Source: a virus
Strand: one strand, 5' to 3'
IMG/VR virus record: IMGVR_UViG_3300032246_000177
Coordinates: 1-58,486 of that record
Length of the DNA: 58,486 nt
Part shown: positions 18,102 through 43,151 of the stretch, piece after piece
Layout: each line of letters starts with the position of its first letter
Numbering within the stretch: the stretch's first letter is position 1
Program-made: the position numbers and the translations under genes
Notes under the pieces: model-generated
What the model was told of the DNA's origin: nothing
The model's input: only the letters and a program-made list of their open reading frames with translations
Databases searched by the model: none

Positions 18102-18781
18102 TATTTTCTCCAGGGCAACGGTTCGCCATATGCCCGTTTCATTTGTTCATTACCTTGTCTAAACATTTCAAGTAATCTTTCGGGCGCTCTGTAATTAACC
18201 GTAGCCTTTCCCGTGCATCCGAAGGAAGGCAAAGTTGCGGCGGCAGCTTTATAGAAGGGTCTGTCTGCCCCCCATTGTCCGTAGAATTTATGCGCAATAG
18301 TAACCAAATATTCCCGCCTAAAGCAGTAACAATTAGTATCGACAAAATTGAGTGTGTGATCATAAAACGTCGGCCATCTGCCAAGGCTTTCACAATCGTC
18401 GTCTCCAATGTATTCTCCATCCTCATTGCATATTCTCCTCAAGCTATAAGACCACATTAAATCTTTACTTTTAATTTTATTAATCATGGTTTCCACATGA
18501 TTAGGCTCGAACCAATTATCCTCATCCAAAAATAGGATGTAATCAGCATTTACCATTAGAGGCATGGCTGCATAGACTCGGTGTCCATACCATCCATTTC
18601 CGCCTACATTCTCAGGTAATTCAATTACTTTTTTAAGATCGGTATTCTCAAAATATTTAGACTTTTGAATCCCATCTAAAACCAAAAGATGCTCAGTCTT
18701 CATGGTTTGATCTCTAACACTTTGTATTGCCTTATGTACCGTATCTTTCCCAGTAGTAGGAGTGATTACCATTATCCGCAT
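18101..18781 (-). CDS. Glycosyltransferase family 2-like
   Basis: 226 residues. MRIMVITPTTGK, AIQSVRDQT and LLVLDG form the nucleotide-sugar half of a GT2 fold, and FLDEDNWFEP (D86-E-D88) is the metal motif. NVGGNGWYGHRVYAAMPL is typical of phage GT2 proteins. It probably transfers a sugar in the same pathway as the neighbouring GT-A and GT10 enzymes. It overlaps the lipoprotein gene by 10 bases. Confidence 0.8.
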   Translation of the reverse strand: MRIMVITPTTGKDTVHKAIQSVRDQTMKTEHLLVLDGIQKSKYFENTDLKKVIELPENVGGNGWYGHRVYAAMPLMVNADYILFLDEDNWFEPNHVETMINKIKSKDLMWSYSLRRICNEDGEYIGDDDCESLGRWPTFYDHTLNFVDTNCYCFRREYLVTIAHKFYGQWGADRPFYKAAAATLPSFGCTGKATVNYRAPERLLEMFRQGNEQMKRAYGEPLPWRK

Positions 18782-18978
18782 GTCTTAATTACCTTTCCTT
18801 GAGACTCCTGATATACGCAACCGCCTTGCATCTGCGGGCGCTTAAACTCCCTGATATGGCGGCATTCTTGTTCTGCTTTTACTGGAATAGTTTTATCCAT
18901 GCAGTTGTATTCAGCTACATAGACTTGGGACTGGTCGCAACCAGCTAACAATAAAATGGGCAATAAGTACTTAATCAT
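18772..18978 (-). CDS. Small lipoprotein
   Basis: 68 residues. MIKYLLPILLLAGC is a lipoprotein signal with the lipobox LLAGC and lipidated C14. The mature part has four more Cys (YNCMD, QECRH, GGCVY, KTCG), so disulfides are likely. It should be anchored to the inner or outer membrane. Superinfection exclusion is a common job for early phage lipoproteins, but is not shown here. ATGA coupling to the radical SAM gene. Confidence 0.75.
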   Translation of the reverse strand: MIKYLLPILLLAGCDQSQVYVAEYNCMDKTIPVKAEQECRHIREFKRPQMQGGCVYQESQGKVIKTCG

Positions 18979-19838
18979 ATTTGCGTCACATTCTCACAAG
19001 ATTTACAGATGCTGCATTTAGAAAACTTAGGCTCTTCATTAATCTCAATCAAATCTAATAAGGGTTTACCCTTAAATATCTCTTCATAGGTCTGAGTTAA
19101 TAGATTACCGATAATATGCTTAAGGTTGTAATCCATACAACAAAGCACAACGTCACCATTAGGTAGCAAAACGTTTCGATCATAGAACGGGGTACTCCTA
19201 CAAGTTAATGAAAAAGAATTAATGGGGGTAAGACTAAGGACTTGGCCAGCTACTTGCTCAGTATTCAAGCTATCCGCCCGTGTATGCCCTTGCCAACCTG
19301 GAAGCTTTCCTATCAGCGACTGAAGCTCAGGATGTACTAAGCCAGAGCTATCCATTGTCATCGCTCCAACGCCACAAGGAACATTGGTATGAGACATTAC
19401 CGCAGCAGCATTTAACCACTCTTCGCTGTTTTTCCAGCCTTTCATATTGCCGTTAGCGTCGGGAAGGTGCAACATAATCACATCTACTTGACTAGGATGA
19501 TCCTCTAATACTTTGCGGACTCGCTCAGGATCCGTCATGCCGTATAGAGTACTGTAAATAGCAATGTTAAATCCCATGTATAGAACGGTCTCTAGCATCT
19601 CCGTACAGTGCGGGTTAGCCCAAGGCTCAGACATACCGGAGAAGTCGATCCTAGTGTCTTTTGGTAGCTTTGAGAGTACTGTTACTAGGTCTCTGGGTTG
19701 TAAATACTTTTCGCTATTGCCATAACTATCCCGTAAGTTTTCTTGCGGACAAAAAGTACACATCAATGGGCAACCGATCATTGTGGTCAGCTCCATTACT
19801 GGGCCTTCAAAATGTTTAATGCCGTACTTCTCTTTCAT
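18975..19838 (-). CDS. Radical SAM protein with SPASM-like C-terminus
   Basis: 287 residues. C23-x3-C27-x2-C30 (CPLMCTFC) binds the radical SAM iron-sulfur cluster, and DFSGMSEPWANP follows as in radical SAM folds. LLPNGDVVLCCMDY and CSICKSCE near the C-terminus are SPASM-type cysteine clusters. Relatives act on sugars, peptides or cofactors. Located between methyltransferase and glycosyltransferase genes, so modification of a sugar or its carrier is the best guess. Confidence 0.8.
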   Translation of the reverse strand: MKEKYGIKHFEGPVMELTTMIGCPLMCTFCPQENLRDSYGNSEKYLQPRDLVTVLSKLPKDTRIDFSGMSEPWANPHCTEMLETVLYMGFNIAIYSTLYGMTDPERVRKVLEDHPSQVDVIMLHLPDANGNMKGWKNSEEWLNAAAVMSHTNVPCGVGAMTMDSSGLVHPELQSLIGKLPGWQGHTRADSLNTEQVAGQVLSLTPINSFSLTCRSTPFYDRNVLLPNGDVVLCCMDYNLKHIIGNLLTQTYEEIFKGKPLLDLIEINEEPKFSKCSICKSCENVTQI

Positions 19839-20560
19839 TTGTACATTCCTTCTGGTAAAGGGCGGTCTGGTTTGTCTAAGACATTAGGCATGTCCAATGG
19901 GTGTGGAAACTCTGTGCAAAATCCTGTTGCTGGTGAGCGGTCTTTGCGTAAGAAAGTTAGTTCAAATACGGTAGGCATTAAAAACCCATCAATGTCAATG
20001 AATTGGCAGTTGTTGTTTGGGTGGTTATGAACTACATGGAAATCTTGTAATAACTTGTGAAAGAAAGTTTGGACTATATCCCAAGCAAGAGGGTTGTTAA
20101 ACCAGTTTTGTACATCGTGTATTTCAATCGCCATAATCCTAAAGTTACATAGTACTTCCGATGGTGTGCTGAGTATCGTTACATACTCTGCGCCCTCAAT
20201 ATCCATCTGAAGAATCAAGTCGTCGCTGGAATAAGAATTGCTAAACATCCAGTCTGATAGGGTCATATAGCCTTCAGTATTTACGCCATCTAAATACTTC
20301 TTGGTAAAGGATGCTACTTCCAATCCATCAGGAGGTGCATCTACTGAAGCATCTGCAAGGTGAGACTTAATACCACGCCCAAGAAGATCTTTCTCAAAGT
20401 TGGCAGTTACATCTACGCCAGGCGAGAAACAGGCTGTAATGCCCTCTAAATCGTCTGGAATTAAATATCCACCATCGTTATTTCCGCCAATACGTACCAG
20501 CTCAAAATTAGTCTTTACTGGCCTAATTGATTGAATAAGATCTTTTAATTGGTTAATCAT
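19835..20560 (-). CDS. FkbM-family methyltransferase
   Basis: 241 residues. The SAM-binding fold is indicated by ELVRIGGNNDGGYLIPDD and ACFSPGVDVTANFE, and LQMDIEGAEYVTIL is the FkbM hallmark. FkbM enzymes O-methylate sugars, lipids or peptides. It overlaps the radical SAM and GT10 genes by 4 bases each, so the three are probably made together and act on the same glycan. Confidence 0.8.
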   Translation of the reverse strand: MINQLKDLIQSIRPVKTNFELVRIGGNNDGGYLIPDDLEGITACFSPGVDVTANFEKDLLGRGIKSHLADASVDAPPDGLEVASFTKKYLDGVNTEGYMTLSDWMFSNSYSSDDLILQMDIEGAEYVTILSTPSEVLCNFRIMAIEIHDVQNWFNNPLAWDIVQTFFHKLLQDFHVVHNHPNNNCQFIDIDGFLMPTVFELTFLRKDRSPATGFCTEFPHPLDMPNVLDKPDRPLPEGMYK

Positions 20561-21414
20561 TGAACTATATTTCTCACAAAATCTAATGCGTTATCAAGGC
20601 TGGGTTCTTCCCAAAGAAGTGGCTTAGTATACATAGCCTCGTAAAGTTCTTTGCTTTCATCAATAGCCTGAATAGTTTGAACAAACCAGTTCATATCCTT
20701 GGTGTTCATATAGTTCAGATATGCACCCTCATGGAAATCACAATCAGCCGACATGGTTCCGCTATAGATAGGTATAGTATCGCCCGCATAGGCGTCTAAT
20801 AACTTCTCGGTAATGTATCCATCATAGATAGAGTTTTCAGGGCAGAGGCAGAACTTATACTGTGGCAACACAGAAAACTTAGATTCACGCAATGAGTTAC
20901 CAAACATATTGCCGTAACCATGTACGGGTTTATACTTAGATATAGAGTTGTACAAGTTAATGCGTAACCCTTCGGGGTTGCCAGCGATCATGGCGCAAAA
21001 CTTATCTTTCTTAGCCCAATCAACTACCCTTGGCTTAGTCAATGGCTCAATCTTAATCAATGGTTCATATCCATGATTGTGTGCATTTGGTCTGCGTGGT
21101 TTCTGCTCAAAATCAGGCCAAGCTAACCGTGAATACCATAAAGGTAATCGAAAATTACGTCCACCATAACTGTCATAGTCAAAAGACAGAGAATGATCAT
21201 AGCCCAAGTAGCTAGGTCGAATATTCTCTCCAATGTACGCAATAGTTTTTCGTGGATCATATTGAGCATTTCCAAAGACTGAGGTTACGATAAGGTCTGC
21301 TTCGTATGGATTGTTTGTATATTCAAACCCACCCAGAGCTTGTTGGAAAAAGTATTCAAAAAAGTCTCCATCAAAGCCGCCGTCCCAAAAGTTAATTACG
21401 CATAGCTTTTTCAT
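20557..21414 (-). CDS. Glycosyltransferase family 10 (fucosyltransferase-like)
   Basis: 285 residues from the ATG at 21414, which overlaps the upstream stop (TAATG). The second half carries the GT10 signature: YKFCLCPENSIYDGYITEKL, then DAYAGDTIPIYSG. GT10 enzymes are alpha-1,3-fucosyltransferases or use related deoxyhexoses. The first half (VINFWDGGFDGDFFEYFF, IAYIGENIRP) is the acceptor domain. No GDP-fucose synthesis genes are present, so the donor must come from the host. Confidence 0.85.
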   Translation of the reverse strand: MKKLCVINFWDGGFDGDFFEYFFQQALGGFEYTNNPYEADLIVTSVFGNAQYDPRKTIAYIGENIRPSYLGYDHSLSFDYDSYGGRNFRLPLWYSRLAWPDFEQKPRRPNAHNHGYEPLIKIEPLTKPRVVDWAKKDKFCAMIAGNPEGLRINLYNSISKYKPVHGYGNMFGNSLRESKFSVLPQYKFCLCPENSIYDGYITEKLLDAYAGDTIPIYSGTMSADCDFHEGAYLNYMNTKDMNWFVQTIQAIDESKELYEAMYTKPLLWEEPSLDNALDFVRNIVQ

Positions 21415-21680
21415 TAGCAACGCCCATCCACATCAGTATCTTTTTTCTTTTTCTTTTTTAACTCAATCTTTTCTGATTGGCGATTAAGAGCCATAATCTC
21501 AGCAGCTAACAAATCTAACTTGTCGCTAAGACTTGTAAGCATGTCTACTGCCGCCCAAGCCGCCCCGCTTTCTGCATTATCAGAAAGACTAGTAGCTATT
21601 AACTCCACAACCATTGCTGCGCTATGTACCTTGTAACCTACTTCGCTAACCTCGTTAGCCTTCTCCCACAAACCGTCCAT
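21414..21680 (-). CDS. Small helical protein, DUF3077-like pattern
   Basis: 88 residues from the ATG at 21680, chosen because AAAGGAG lies 8 nt upstream. VHSAAMVVELIATSLSDN and SGAAWAAVDMLTSLSDKLDL form two helices of the type seen in DUF3077-like phage proteins. The C-terminus is a run of Lys (KKKKKK). Function unknown. Confidence 0.55.
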   Translation of the reverse strand: MDGLWEKANEVSEVGYKVHSAAMVVELIATSLSDNAESGAAWAAVDMLTSLSDKLDLLAAEIMALNRQSEKIELKKKKKKDTDVDGRC

Positions 21681-22926: not shown

Positions 22927-23523
22927 TTATTCCTCAATTAATTGTTGTAATTCATTAGATCTGGATGGGTGTCTCATCTTGCGTAATGCCTTGGCTTCAA
23001 TTTGCCTAATTCTTTCTGCAGTACAACCCATCTCTTGCGCAACATCACGTAAACTTTGCTCGTTGCCGTTAATACCAAACCTTTTTCCAAGAACCATTTG
23101 CTCTGTAAATGTAAGGGTTTTTAAAGTTTTAGCTATAATTGATACTTTTTCTTTTTCAAAAACTTCAGCGTCTGGTTCTTTCATTTCAATTAAATCTATT
23201 GGATCCATTGCCAAAGCTGCAAGAACTTCTGTGCCTGACATTGCACCTTCTGCGCTATTGTTTTTAAGTCTCATACTAAGTTGTTCGTTAGTCCATAGGT
23301 CTGTTGGACAAGCCCCTAATACCTCCATCATTGTTTGCGCAACATCTGTAAATGTTCCATCATTGCGTATGGGGCAAACACGTAAACCAACCAATGCCGT
23401 AACATGGGTGTCTGTTAACCCAGCAGCCCTAGCAAACTCTGCTTGAGATTTATAGCCAGCATCCTCAATTGCTGATAGCAACAAGTTATTTCTAACCGTT
23501 ACTTTTACTCTATACTCTTTCAT
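22927..23523 (-). CDS. HTH and sigma-region-4 regulator
   Basis: 198 residues, first gene of the early operon. Residues ~12-45 (LLLSAIEDAGYKSQAEFARA, GLTDTHVTALVGLR) resemble a Cro/CI-type HTH. Residues ~125-190 (TLTFTEQMVLGKRFG, QSLRDVAQEMGCTAERIRQI EAKALRKMRHPSR split by the motif) match sigma-70 region 4, which contacts the -35 element. There is no region 2, so it cannot melt a promoter as a full sigma factor would. It may act as a regulator or anti-sigma-like competitor. SD GAGGAG precedes the ATG at 23523. Confidence 0.8.
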   Translation of the reverse strand: MKEYRVKVTVRNNLLLSAIEDAGYKSQAEFARAAGLTDTHVTALVGLRVCPIRNDGTFTDVAQTMMEVLGACPTDLWTNEQLSMRLKNNSAEGAMSGTEVLAALAMDPIDLIEMKEPDAEVFEKEKVSIIAKTLKTLTFTEQMVLGKRFGINGNEQSLRDVAQEMGCTAERIRQIEAKALRKMRHPSRSNELQQLIEE

Positions 23524-24088: not shown

Positions 24089-24106
24089 ACTGTATGGATG
24101 TACAGT
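24089..24106. promoter_or_regulatory. LexA/SOS box 1
   Basis: CTGTATGGATGTACAG (24090-24105) fits CTGT-N8-ACAG, the LexA operator of beta- and gammaproteobacteria, and is almost the reverse complement of the E. coli sulA box as I remember it. TTAACA at 24084 could be a -35 for a rightward promoter with the box in its spacer. A terminator begins 30 bp downstream, so any rightward transcript would be very short. Confidence 0.7.
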
Positions 24107-24134
24107 AGTTTTACTTTTCCTCGGTAGGGTGTTT

Positions 24135-24169
24135 GGGGGTGGCATCACGGAGCCACTCCCATTTTTTTT
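24135..24169 (+). terminator. Rho-independent terminator
   Basis: GGGGGTGGC (24135-24143) pairs with GCCACTCCC (24152-24160; one G-T pair), with an 8-nt loop, then A and eight T. It ends the rusA transcript and anything started at the SOS box. Confidence 0.85.
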
Positions 24170-24170
24170 G

Positions 24171-24188
24171 CATCTGGTAAATTTACCA
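24171..24188. promoter_or_regulatory. Palindromic operator, copy 1
   Basis: CATCTGGTAAATTTACCA contains the perfect dyad TGGTAAATTTACCA (24175-24188). It covers the -35 position of the promoter whose -10 is at 24197. The same 18 bases recur at 35018-35035. Confidence 0.65.
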
Positions 24189-24196
24189 CATAGGTG

Positions 24197-24218
24197 TATA
24201 ATTGTTGCATTGCAACAA
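24197..24218 (+). promoter_or_regulatory. Promoter -10 and second operator
   Basis: TATAAT (24197-24202) is a consensus -10 without a good -35. The dyad TTGTTGCA-T-TGCAACAA (24202-24218) covers the start-site region. With the palindrome at 24175 the -10 is flanked by two different operators, so this promoter looks tightly controlled. Confidence 0.6.
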
Positions 24219-24423: not shown

Positions 24424-24828
24424 ATTTGTGTTATAGTTTTACTAACAGAAGGAAACTTTGGACGGTTTTCTTATGTTACAATCACGACCAAAGCCTCATA
24501 CACATGGGGTCTGCGCCTAGTTTTCTTATGCTTGGTTGGTCGGTGACAAACATAAGCGAATGTCCAAACGTAGACTCCAGTTGTATGGGGCTTTTTCTTT
24601 TGTGGTTTATCCTGGACGGCAGAGAAACACCAGCGGGATAGATACAAGCGCTACTGGGGAAGTAGATGTAAGAGCGCAATATCGGTGGCGAAGCTTAGTG
24701 CCGATTCTACGAACGACTGGCGAGTGCTGTGGCTCCGAAAGGTAACAGTTAAAGGCGCACTGCTAGGGCGTAGTGCGCTCACCAAAAGGTAACATGGGCT
24801 TACGTAAGAAAGCAATAGAAAGAGAGCA
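24424..24828 (+). ncRNA. Structured non-coding region, possible RNA
   Basis: About 400 bases without a credible gene. AGCCTCATACACATGGGGTCT-type arm at 24492-24512 pairs with 24572-24592 (17 of 21), ending in TTTTTCTTTT like a terminator. Inside are CTTATG (24525) / CATAAG (24551). TTTGGAC (24457-24463) pairs with GTCCAAA (24562-24568), which crosses the long stem, so it is either a pseudoknot or an alternative fold. Further stems: CTACT/AGTAG (~24650), ATCGG/CCGAT (~24685) and GCGCACT (24755-24761) / AGTGCGC (24772-24778). AAAGGTAACA occurs twice (~24738 and ~24786). A 14-codon reading frame begins at 24794. No promoter is obvious. Confidence 0.5.
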
Positions 24829-27477: not shown

Positions 27478-27650
27478 CAGAAAAAACACCATACGATGAT
27501 TACGCCATGACTCAGCAAGAAGTTGCTGATGTACTTGGAATGAAAAGATCTTATGTTGGTTTTGTAGAAACTAGAGCTAAAGCTAAGTTAAAAGCTGAAT
27601 TAGAAAAGCGTGGTTATAAATTAGAAGATTTTTTAGGAGGAATGGCATGA
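27474..27650 (+). CDS. Sigma-region-4-like mini protein
   Basis: 58 residues, coupled to the helicase stop by ATGA. MTQQEVADVLGMKRSYVGFV, then ETRAKAKLKAELEKRG and KLEDFLGG follow the sigma-70 region 4 HTH pattern. Too short for any other sigma region. Likely a DNA-binding regulator; a second sigma-4-like protein in the phage besides the one at 22927. Confidence 0.65.
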   Translation: MTEKTPYDDYAMTQQEVADVLGMKRSYVGFVETRAKAKLKAELEKRGYKLEDFLGGMA

Positions 27651-33552: not shown

Positions 33553-33561
33553 AAATTCCTC

Positions 33562-33648
33562 TTATATTTGAATGAATGCAAACACCAAAGCGGTGATAGT
33601 GCATAGGGATACAACTGCTACAAACTGAATAAAATCTTTATCTTCCAT
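33562..33648 (-). CDS. 28-residue single-helix membrane peptide
   Basis: SD AAGAGGAG lies upstream of the ATG at 33648. MEDKDFIQFVAVVSLCTITA, then LVFAFIQI: acidic N-terminus and one transmembrane helix to the end. Third such mini membrane peptide in the phage. Function unknown. Confidence 0.6.
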   Translation of the reverse strand: MEDKDFIQFVAVVSLCTITALVFAFIQI

Positions 33649-33700
33649 AACTTCTCCTCTTTTGCAATACATTAAAAAAAACTACATATTGAGATACTAC

Positions 33701-33744
33701 ACCCAAACCATAGTCGAGTGCAAATCCCGACTAAAGTTTGGGGT
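33701..33744 (-). other. Two-part hairpin in the leader between small genes
   Basis: CCCAAAC (33702-33708) pairs with GTTTGGG (33736-33742), and after a 3-nt internal loop AGTCG (33712-33716) pairs with CGACT (33728-33732). On the minus strand it precedes a nine-T run at ~33672-33680. It could be a terminator-like attenuator or regulatory leader. The stretch 33649-33764 holds no gene. Confidence 0.5.
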
Positions 33745-33764
33745 TATTACTCAAAGGCCCCAAG

Positions 33765-33929
33765 CTATTCGCCCGACTCCTTTTGCCCAAATAAAGCCTT
33801 GACGATGCAATCAGCCAAGACTAACTGGCTCTTAGTAGGTAACTCAGGGAAGTAGTCAACTACATAGGCATAAGCCATCTTTAAGCGGATCTCTGAGCGG
33901 TCTTCTATTACTGTTGTTTGTGTATCCAA
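33765..33929 (-). CDS. 54-residue protein, TTG start
   Basis: TTG start with GGAG 10 nt upstream; an ATG at codon 18 is the alternative. MDTQTTVIEDRSEIRLKMAY, then DYFPELPTKSQLVLADCIVK. Coherent helical pattern suggests a real gene, the first of the minus cluster. Function unknown. Confidence 0.55.
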   Translation of the reverse strand: MDTQTTVIEDRSEIRLKMAYAYVVDYFPELPTKSQLVLADCIVKALFGQKESGE

Positions 33930-34233
33930 GATGTTTAATCTCCATTAGGTTTAAAAAGTGCTACATACATAAGACGATCGACTGTCCAAAAACTTAGGGC
34001 AATTCATCCTCTTATCTATAAAGACGAGAGAGAAAGCAAAAAGTGAGGGTCAATTAAAAATATATTTTTTGGCGGTTTTCCAGGATTCCGGAGGTTTGCT
34101 GCCTCAAACGAAAAAGCCCGATAGCCTTATAGGAGAACGGCTTAGATACTTATGCAGTAGGAGAGAACACAGAGCATAGGAGACTTACTTAGGTATGAGA
34201 GTCCACAGAAAAACAAAGCATCGCCTTTTAAGC
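33930..34233. other. Divergent control region, no gene seen
   Basis: About 300 bases between the small-gene cluster and the packaging operon. On the minus strand TTGGAC and TATGTA are 16 bp apart near 33966-33993, a weak promoter with a CGATCG palindrome between. AAGCC/GGCTT (34105-34134) can form a stem. AT-rich tract at ~34057-34070. No credible reading frame. Confidence 0.4.
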
Positions 34234-34251
34234 ACTGTATACATATACAGT
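34234..34251. promoter_or_regulatory. LexA/SOS box 2, before packaging operon
   Basis: CTGTATACATATACAG (34235-34250) is a near-perfect CTGT-N8-ACAG LexA operator; the dyad extends to ACTGTATA/TATACAGT. A likely promoter overlaps it: TATACA (34238-34243), 16 bp, TATCAT (34260-34265), with the terminase small subunit ATG at 34295. LexA bound here would block the promoter of the packaging and structural genes until DNA damage. Confidence 0.8.
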
Positions 34252-34294
34252 CTTTATGCTATCATTATCCCAATACCAAATAAATACCCAATCA

Positions 34295-35074
34295 ATGAAA
34301 CTTCACAGACTAACGAGAAAACAGATCAGAGAGCAATTGGATCAAGTACCGATCACGGAGATTCTCGGAGTACCGAAACGCAATCTAACCCACAAACAAC
34401 AGGAATTTTGTAAGCATATGGCTAAGGGAGAAACAGGTGCAGAGAGTTATCGTAAGGCTTATGGGAGCGAGGGAGCGAAGGCTAGACCGAAGGTCGCTGG
34501 TAATCGTGCATCTAAGTTGAAAGATCGTGAGGTAATACAGAGGGAGATCGAGGCGATTAGGGTAGCTCTGGAGTTCGAGAAATCACATACCACCCAACAA
34601 TTAAGAGCGTTGGTGGTATCTCAGCTTACAAAAGAGGCGTTAGATCCCGATAACAACGCAAACGCTAGGCTCATCGCTCTGCGTAGCTTGGGAACGGTGG
34701 CTGGTGTCGATGCCTTCCAACACATTAGCCAGTCAACAATCATTAAGGATTCAACAGAGAGCCGAGCCGAACTCATGGACAAACTAAAACAAGTCATGGC
34801 GGACAATATGCGGACGATTGATCATGAGCCTGACGATGCGGACGCTCTGCTCGCTCTGATTGCTGGTGGAAAGCCCGACCCCATCGAAAATTCCGAGTAT
34901 TCCGACCCCACCGCAGCCCCATCCCCGTTTGACCAAAATTCGGGTACCGGTAACTTACATAGTATTCCAGACAAACAATCACAAACAAAACAGGGGCTAC
35001 CCCTCGAAAACGAAAGCCATCTGGTAAATTTACCAGATACAGAAGACACCCCCCTAATGAAATCAAACACTTAG
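34295..35074 (+). CDS. terS: Terminase small subunit
   Basis: 259 residues from the ATG at 34295; the earlier ATG at 34256 lies in the promoter. RKQIREQLDQVPITEILGVP is followed by LTHKQQEFCKHMAKGETGAE, SYRKAYGSEGAKA and ASKLKDREVIQREIEAI, the HTH and helical hairpin of small terminases. The protein binds phage DNA at the packaging site and recruits the large subunit. The C-terminus is unstructured and acidic. It contains the palindrome at 35019-35038 in its last codons. Confidence 0.8.
   Translation: MKLHRLTRKQIREQLDQVPITEILGVPKRNLTHKQQEFCKHMAKGETGAESYRKAYGSEGAKARPKVAGNRASKLKDREVIQREIEAIRVALEFEKSHTTQQLRALVVSQLTKEALDPDNNANARLIALRSLGTVAGVDAFQHISQSTIIKDSTESRAELMDKLKQVMADNMRTIDHEPDDADALLALIAGGKPDPIENSEYSDPTAAPSPFDQNSGTGNLHSIPDKQSQTKQGLPLENESHLVNLPDTEDTPLMKSNT
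35019..35038. promoter_or_regulatory. Palindromic operator, copy 2
   Basis: ATCTGGTAAATTTACCAGAT is a perfect 20-bp palindrome, inside the 3' end of the terminase small subunit gene and ~150 bp before the LexA-like gene. It shares 18 bases with the site at 24171. A regulator made here could bind both. Confidence 0.7.
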
Positions 35075-35192: not shown

Positions 35193-35415
35193 GCGCCAGG
35201 CTATCGTTTACGAGATGATTGACGAATGGTGGAAGAAGTTCGGCTATGCGCCCTCTATAGATGATGTCATGAACCAAACCAACTTTAAGGGGCGGGGGCA
35301 TACGCACAGGATTATGAAGCAACTATGTGATTTAGGTCTCTGTAAAAGATTACCCAATCGGGCGAGAAGTATTAGACCTACCTATATGCGTGTCCATAAG
35401 TTAGAACGAGAATGA
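35185..35415 (+). CDS. LexA DNA-binding-domain protein without peptidase
   Basis: 76 residues. MTERQAIVYEMIDEWWKKFG, then YAPSIDDVMNQTNFKGRGHT, HRIMKQLCDLGLCKRLP and NRARSIRPTY follow the LexA N-terminal winged helix nearly residue for residue, including the RxxSIR turn after the wing. The Ser/Lys autoprotease domain is absent, so it cannot self-cleave in the SOS response. It may bind SOS boxes or the palindromes. Located between the terminase subunit genes; overlaps TerL by ATGA. Confidence 0.85.
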   Translation: MTERQAIVYEMIDEWWKKFGYAPSIDDVMNQTNFKGRGHTHRIMKQLCDLGLCKRLPNRARSIRPTYMRVHKLERE

Positions 35416-36899
35416 ATATAGAAGAGATTATCAAAGGTTTACCGCCAGAAGAACAAGATTCTTTGTTCTCTATGGCGAAAGACTATATGGACTCTTTAGG
35501 TCGGGAAAAGGCTCAAACGGACTTTATGGAGTTTGTCCGTCAGATGTGGCCCGGATTTGTAAACGGCCCTCACCATAAGATTATGGCTAAAAAGTTCCAA
35601 GAGATAGCCGAAGGCAAATGTAAAAGACTTATCATTAATATGCCTCCCCGCCATACCAAAAGTGAGTTTGCATCGTATATGCTTCCCGCATGGTTCTTAG
35701 GAAAGTATCCTAGTAAGAAGATTATTCAATGTTCTAATACCGCAGAATTAGCGGTCGGTTTTGGTAGGAAAGTGAGGAACCTAGTTGGTAGCGATGCATA
35801 CTCAAAGATATTCCCGAATGTCGCTCTTAAGTCTGATAGTAAGGCTGCTGGTCGTTGGGCTACTAATGCCGATGGCGATTACTTCGCTATTGGTGTTGGC
35901 GGTACTGTTACAGGTAAAGGAGCTGATCTGCTCATTATTGACGATCCGCACTCGGAGCAAGAGGCGGCGATAGCAGCCACTAACCCAGAAGTCTACGATA
36001 AGGTTTATGAATGGTACTCATCAGGTCCTCGTCAACGACTTCAACCAGGTGGTGCCATTATTGTCGTTATGACCCGCTGGAGTCTAAGAGACTTAACGGG
36101 CAAGATTTTAAAGTCTTCCATTGAGCGTGACGGGGATATGTGGGATGTGATTAACTTCCCCGCCATTTTGCCAAATGAAGAACCTTTGTGGCCGGCATTC
36201 TGGCCGTTAAAAGAACTTCTTGCCTTAAAAGAAGAACTTCCTGTTTCTAAATGGAATGCCCAGTATCAGCAAAGCCCTACGAGTGAAGAGGGCGCCCTTG
36301 TTAAAAGAGAGTGGTGGAAGCTTTGGGAGTCAGATCGTCCTCCGCAATGTCAATTCATTATCCAATCTTGGGATACCGCCTTTACCAAGAACGAACGGTC
36401 AGACTACTCAGCCTGTACGACTTGGGGTGTCTTTTACAAGGACGAAGATGAAATGCAACCCAATATCATCTTGCTTGATGCTTTTAAAGAAAGACTTGAG
36501 TTTCCAGAATTAAAGGAGCGGGCGATCAGAATGTATAAAGAATGGGAACCCGATGCGTTTATCGTAGAGGCTAAGGCGTCTGGTGCCCCGCTTATATTTG
36601 AATTGCGGCGCATGGGTATCCCTGTATCAGAGTTTACACCTACTCGTGGCAATGATAAGATAGCTCGATTAAATTCGGTAACAGATTTGTTTGCATCCGG
36701 CAAAGTGTGGGCGCCGGGAACAAGATGGGCTGATGAAGTGATGGAAGAGATGGCGGCATTCCCAAACTCGGATCACGATGACTTAGTGGATAGCTCCACA
36801 CAAGCATTGATTCGTTTTCGGAAAGGCGGTTTTATTTCTCTACCTTCAGATGACCAAGACGAACCACAATTTTACAGACGGAAGGCTGCGTACTACTAA
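35412..36899 (+). CDS. terL: Terminase large subunit
   Basis: 495 residues. Walker A MPPRHTKSE (78-85), Walker B LLIIDDPH (D177-D178), the coupling TRWSLRD, and the nuclease D321 in QSWDTAF plus HDDLVDSS near 467 define a phage packaging ATPase-nuclease. It pumps DNA into the prohead and cuts it. Start fixed by ATGA overlap. Headful or site-specific cutting cannot be told. Confidence 0.95.
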   Translation: MNIEEIIKGLPPEEQDSLFSMAKDYMDSLGREKAQTDFMEFVRQMWPGFVNGPHHKIMAKKFQEIAEGKCKRLIINMPPRHTKSEFASYMLPAWFLGKYPSKKIIQCSNTAELAVGFGRKVRNLVGSDAYSKIFPNVALKSDSKAAGRWATNADGDYFAIGVGGTVTGKGADLLIIDDPHSEQEAAIAATNPEVYDKVYEWYSSGPRQRLQPGGAIIVVMTRWSLRDLTGKILKSSIERDGDMWDVINFPAILPNEEPLWPAFWPLKELLALKEELPVSKWNAQYQQSPTSEEGALVKREWWKLWESDRPPQCQFIIQSWDTAFTKNERSDYSACTTWGVFYKDEDEMQPNIILLDAFKERLEFPELKERAIRMYKEWEPDAFIVEAKASGAPLIFELRRMGIPVSEFTPTRGNDKIARLNSVTDLFASGKVWAPGTRWADEVMEEMAAFPNSDHDDLVDSSTQALIRFRKGGFISLPSDDQDEPQFYRRKAAYY

Positions 36900-43126: not shown

Positions 43127-43151
43127 CCCCACCCTACCCGGTGGGGTTTTT
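43127..43151 (+). terminator. Rho-independent terminator after capsid gene
   Basis: CCCCACC (43127-43133) and GGTGGGG (43140-43146) with a 6-nt loop, then TTTTT. It separates head genes from the virion genes that follow. Confidence 0.85.

Follow-up and report, generated by a model that had tools for sequence, protein, structure and literature searches.

Late genes of an uncultured tailed phage are probably under host LexA, with a phage-encoded LexA-like DNA-binding domain as a second regulator

The window analysed here is the whole 58,486-nucleotide stretch of a viral record (IMG/VR IMGVR_UViG_3300032246_000177) of a freshwater virus of bacteria. Its packaging and structural genes begin with terS, and between terS and terL, in the operon downstream of a palindromic LexA-type site (type I box), lies a gene for a small protein resembling the DNA-binding domain (DBD) of LexA (Table 1). 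The profile matches of terS were obtained with a longer frame starting at 34256; since this start falls inside the promoter, the gene probably begins at 34295. To the left of the late promoter, approximately 680 bp (33553-34233) separating it from the leftward genes carry no assigned gene, and the right end of this segment is partly conserved in two relatives (L003 and L004). Promoter and terminator calls in the window are consensus matches.

Table 1. Features of the late promoter and terminase region, and of the related region near 24 kb, in window coordinates
Feature	Position	Strand	Remarks
Second type I box ACTGTATGGATGTACAGT	24089..24106	.	Downstream of rusA; same place in relatives
Rho-independent terminator after second box	24134..24161	+	Similar hairpin and T-run in relatives
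Second type II palindrome copy and promoter	24172..24202	+	Palindrome 24172-24191, one mismatch; -10 TATAAT 24197-24202, by eye
Betaproteobacteria-1 RNA (RF02932)	24605..24725	+	RNA family match; host-group marker
Type I box, LexA-type operator ACTGTATACATATACAGT	34234..34251	.	Over late promoter; conserved in 28/29 clade members
Late promoter TATACA-16-TATCAT	34238..34265	+	Consensus match; extended -10 recurs in clade
terS, terminase small subunit	34295..35074	+	PHROG 51, E 7e-8; weak Pfam Terminase_2
Type II palindrome ATCTGGTAAATTTACCAGAT (CTGG-N8-CCAG)	35019..35038	.	~150 bp upstream of LexA-DBD gene; proposed operator of phage protein
Small ORF, 34 aa	35088..35192	+	Read by eye; overlaps start of LexA-DBD gene
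Phage LexA DNA-binding domain only, 76 aa	35185..35415	+	PF01726, E 3.9e-7, above cut-off
terL, terminase large subunit	35412..36899	+	PF17289, PHROG 38

The sequence CTGTATACATATACAG (34235-34250), which lies inside the symmetric 18-mer of the type I box, consists of an exact CTGT-N8-ACAG core with a TA-rich centre and agrees with the Escherichia coli LexA consensus CTG(TA)5CAG at 15 of 16 positions. The bare core is not rare on its own, as each dinucleotide shuffle of the window yielded about one where two were observed. Of 400 shuffles, however, only 2 contained a core with at most one mismatch from the consensus, and 1 contained a pair of ACTGT-N8-ACAGT sites such as that observed here. 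The box overlaps the -35/spacer region of the late promoter, composed of a -35-like TATACA (34238-34243) and an extended -10, TG-C-TATCAT (34257-34265), and this is the sole plus-strand promoter-like site between the start of the leftward gene (33552) and terS. An earlier note on this DNA had described a near-perfect LexA box over the only promoter in front of terS, and both observations hold, the box being one base off the consensus and conserved in the clade described below. The note had also placed the packaging and structural operon under LexA. What stands of this claim is that the promoter of the late genes (terS, terL and structural) carries a LexA-type operator, a reading strongly supported by conservation, position on the promoter and fit to the E. 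coli/betaproteobacterial consensus; the reach of such control over the entire operon is less certain, with a terminator-like site (43131-43147) after the major capsid gene. Other promoter-like sites occur further downstream in the structural operon, in numbers not above chance.

Relatives of TerL were collected from viral contigs, followed by relatives of the small TerL-adjacent protein, and a TerL tree was built with 82 rows having upstream sequence. Box labels on the tree were assigned by a script that accepted exact cores and, where a loose promoter pattern was also present, cores with one mismatch, and a few of them may be wrong; on this labelling, a supported clade (97/90) of 29 phages with upstream sequence, this one included, carries the box upstream of terS in exact form in 24 members and with one mismatch in 4, the only member without it being L132. 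Changes of box label along the tree were far fewer than in shuffles. A chance origin of the late box is ruled out by its conservation upstream of terS across the clade. Outside the clade the box is present in L033 and L147, and mostly absent from the remaining phages.

In the 27 clade loci that were tabulated, the box lies over a similar extended -10 promoter. The two halves of its consensus are unequal, TATACAG on the right being almost invariant and the left half varying, which may point to some additional constraint on the site. Canonical SOS operators of Beta- and Gammaproteobacteria share with it the CTGT-N8-ACAG pattern, the TA-rich core and the overlap with a promoter, but differ in that here the site precedes phage packaging genes and has this asymmetric consensus. 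Several clade loci possess a second box, in tandem or degenerate, and whole-record scans of 12 contigs revealed a few boxes in each (none in one), often with a second one far upstream. Searches near terL of the relatives for Gram-positive and alphaproteobacterial LexA motifs gave just scattered single matches, and a terS query against the viral contigs retrieved one relative only.

The second type I box of the window (core 24090-24105), absent from the earlier reading, lies beside rusA and a terminator, and the same arrangement (box after rusA, before the terminator) was found in all five relatives in which that region was read. In this segment (24090-24161) less than 30 bp separate the box from the stem of the terminator, which is a strong one, and the stretch between the two, similar in L179 and L185, perhaps encodes a short noncoding RNA. 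Next to it, the second copy of the CTGG-N8-CCAG (type II) palindrome covers the -35/spacer of a promoter ahead of a block of ParB-like, helicase, methylase and Toprim genes. The type II palindrome thus occurs in two places (35019-35038 and 24172-24191), against a mean of 0.01 such matches in shuffles.

The 76-residue protein corresponds to a winged-helix LexA DNA-binding domain both by its profile match and by its AlphaFold2 model (pLDDT 90), whose best PDB matches are LexA and LexA-DNA complexes. The NCBIfam lexA profile (TIGR00498) aligns with it at positions 4-67 of 203 only, below the cut-off. The C-terminal S24 protease/dimerisation domain is absent from the protein, and no PF00717 match was found in the record. 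Nearly all relatives have the LexA-DBD gene upstream of that for TerL; the few without it mostly have no upstream sequence or are more distant named phages, and the domain model had no match in the stretches read of the named phages closest by TerL (Pelagibacter phage HTVC027P, DSL-LC04, Pag-Yong1 and 023Pt_psg01). Altogether 482 viral stretches encode a relative. The family corresponds to PHROG 3502, which has no assigned function and for which the present analysis supplies a probable one. Narrow literature searches for freshwater phages that pair a LexA-DBD with a terminase gave no paper, and among the papers listed by a broader search none contained the term for the LexA domain.

The recognition residues and the distribution of the palindromes suggest how the sites are shared between the two proteins. 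In E. coli, LexA contacts DNA through Ser39, Asn41, Ala42, Glu44 and Glu45 (PMC3091678). The phage domain aligns to a solved LexA chain without gaps and has G, G, H, H and R vs SNAEE at the equivalent positions, and no distinct DBD sequence in the comparison retains the E. coli set. Palindromes scoring at least 7.8 were found upstream of the DBD gene in 43% of 90 loci vs 1% inside terL and 2% in shuffles. While the late box follows a single consensus across the 27 tabulated loci of the clade, the DBD-proximal palindromes vary both in sequence and in spacing, with CTGG-N8-CCAG and CTGT-N9-ACAG among the forms seen. Relatives outside the clade have palindromes of the type TAACA-N1/2-TGTTA near the DBD gene; these are often repeated several kb further upstream, on the far side of the Toprim gene, and in L034 one precedes terS. 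In one relative without a type I box (L017:8122-8175), two copies of CTGTACGTTCGTACA lie 39 bp apart upstream of terL. The changed residues at the equivalents of the CTGT contacts point to a division of sites in which, most likely, the late box is read by host LexA and the CTGG palindrome by the phage protein.

It should be noted that the phage domain itself might read the late box, as a self-contained repressor or activator that autoregulates terS, its own gene and terL independently of DNA damage. Such an arrangement would fit the position of the DBD gene within the operon controlled by the box, the type II-like palindrome that L034, a phage without the type I box, carries approximately 160 bp upstream of terS, at the usual place of that box, the CTGT ends retained in several DBD-proximal palindromes (L098, L087 and L101 among them) and the degenerate neighbouring box ending in CCAG in some clade members; the site specificities of LexA and the phage domain may indeed overlap. 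We nevertheless regard this as unlikely, given that the CTGT-contact set of LexA is retained in none of the distinct domains, that the domains and their palindromes vary although a single consensus holds for the late box, and that non-clade phages often have the same contact equivalents (GGNHR occurs in 8 sequences from the clade and 25 from elsewhere) but lack the type I box.

It is less probable still that LexA and the phage domain compete at the late box, with the domain delaying or shutting off the late genes or dampening the SOS response at host boxes. That SOS control can be a phage target is indicated by gp7 of the Bacillus thuringiensis tectivirus GIL01, which strengthens the action of LexA on the boxes of both phage and host (PMC4551915); the altered recognition helix would, on the other hand, make host SOS boxes unlikely targets of the domain studied here. 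A role in packaging is also conceivable, in which the palindromes near terS and terL would be pac sites and the LexA-like domain would belong to the packaging machinery, as the closeness of the palindromes to the terminase genes and the fixed place of the DBD gene beside terL in nearly all relatives might suggest. We consider this the most improbable of the explanations, since a separate terS exists, the type I box sits over a promoter, each dyad has a further copy about 10 kb away, and the fold of the domain is best matched by LexA.

The box pattern CTGT-N8-ACAG is the SOS box of most Betaproteobacteria (PMC6595937). RF02932, detected in the window, was found in 8 of the 9 clade records searched and in none of 11 other records, as a phage-borne copy of a bacterial small RNA family; judged from the name of this RNA family alone, the host is probably a member of the Betaproteobacteria. 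The box and RF02932 mark nearly the same clade (L132 has the RNA without the box, L143 the box without the RNA), and as such they represent one phylogenetic event and are consistent with each other rather than independent support. Assignment of the host through named phages gave no close candidate, and the matching contigs of metagenome-assembled genomes were taxonomically mixed. Neither an integrase nor a CI repressor had been seen by the earlier note, and we likewise found no S24/CI repressor, integrase or ParA in this record, which may be a fragment. HTH_3 gave two weak matches in the record, both below the cut-off. A weak, sub-cut-off HTH_3-like match lies in a short open frame at 27507-27575.

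Taken together, we think it rather probable that the late promoter of this tailed phage, whose hosts are probably Betaproteobacteria, carries an operator for host LexA and that the phage encodes a separate, non-cleavable LexA-like regulator. Resident host LexA would keep the packaging and structural operon repressed until its self-cleavage under RecA-activated SOS, set off by damage from outside or by phage replication itself; alternatively, many phage copies could titrate LexA away. The phage domain, lacking the protease part, would most likely bind the palindrome CTGGTAAATTTACCAG, which is found close to the gene for the domain and also ahead of the replication block, acting as a second LexA-like regulator of uncertain sign, comparable to gp6 of GIL01. 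Virus assembly would in this way probably be tied to host DNA damage. The pairing of proteins and sites is our inference from sequence, as are the direction of regulation, SOS as its trigger and the host group. LexA may serve to time the late genes by SOS while the phage grows lytically, or it may hold the phage in a carrier state. More tentatively, and with somewhat less than even confidence, we propose that a large group of uncultured tailed phages runs late expression through two LexA-family proteins, host LexA at the late promoter and a captured, non-cleavable LexA-DBD with a coevolving operator of its own. Virion assembly in these phages without CI or integrase would then await an SOS signal raised by the infection itself, and a host-LexA box would have been adopted within a betaproteobacterial clade.

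In GIL01 the late promoter P3 is repressed by host LexA acting together with gp7. Its activator is gp6, a shortened homologue of LexA that binds a palindrome of its own, unlike the LexA box (PMC6182141). The earlier note had called SOS control of late genes without CI unusual; unusual it is, but P3 of GIL01 is a direct precedent. Common to both systems are a late promoter with one or more LexA boxes, the lack of a dedicated phage repressor among the genes found and a phage-encoded LexA protein consisting of the DBD only. In contrast to GIL01, however, we deal here with a tailed phage that has a terminase and whose box follows the E. coli/betaproteobacterial pattern; the DBD gene is found next to terL within the late operon, whereas gp6 belongs to the early genes; no counterpart of gp7 was identified; and the domain is only a putative activator. 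The proposed palindrome of the domain, at 35019 and 24172, is also off the late promoter, although L034 has one upstream of terS.

Colicin operons, which PMC6182141 compares with GIL01, likewise place suicidal products under LexA boxes, but these are cellular toxin genes with host co-repressors, whereas here virion genes are concerned. With SOS-induced CI/S24 prophages the phage shares the coupling of DNA damage to phage output, but in this possibly incomplete record neither an S24 repressor nor an integrase matched, and the role of switch would fall to LexA of the host. The arrangement looks like an independent version of the GIL01 logic in tailed phages, and the 482 stretches suggest that LexA-tied virion production with a captured LexA-DBD, of independent origin there, is common. 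The boxes and proteins listed allow one to ask whether lytic phages use SOS as a timer of the infection stage.

Among the other genes of the window, one on the minus strand (22930-23523) may encode a phage transcription factor, its product containing a sigma-70 region 4 domain. On the same strand (18104-21420), genes for a glycosyltransferase 2, a radical SAM/SPASM protein, an FkbM methyltransferase (weak match) and a fucosyltransferase follow in a row, perhaps serving the modification of surface sugars.
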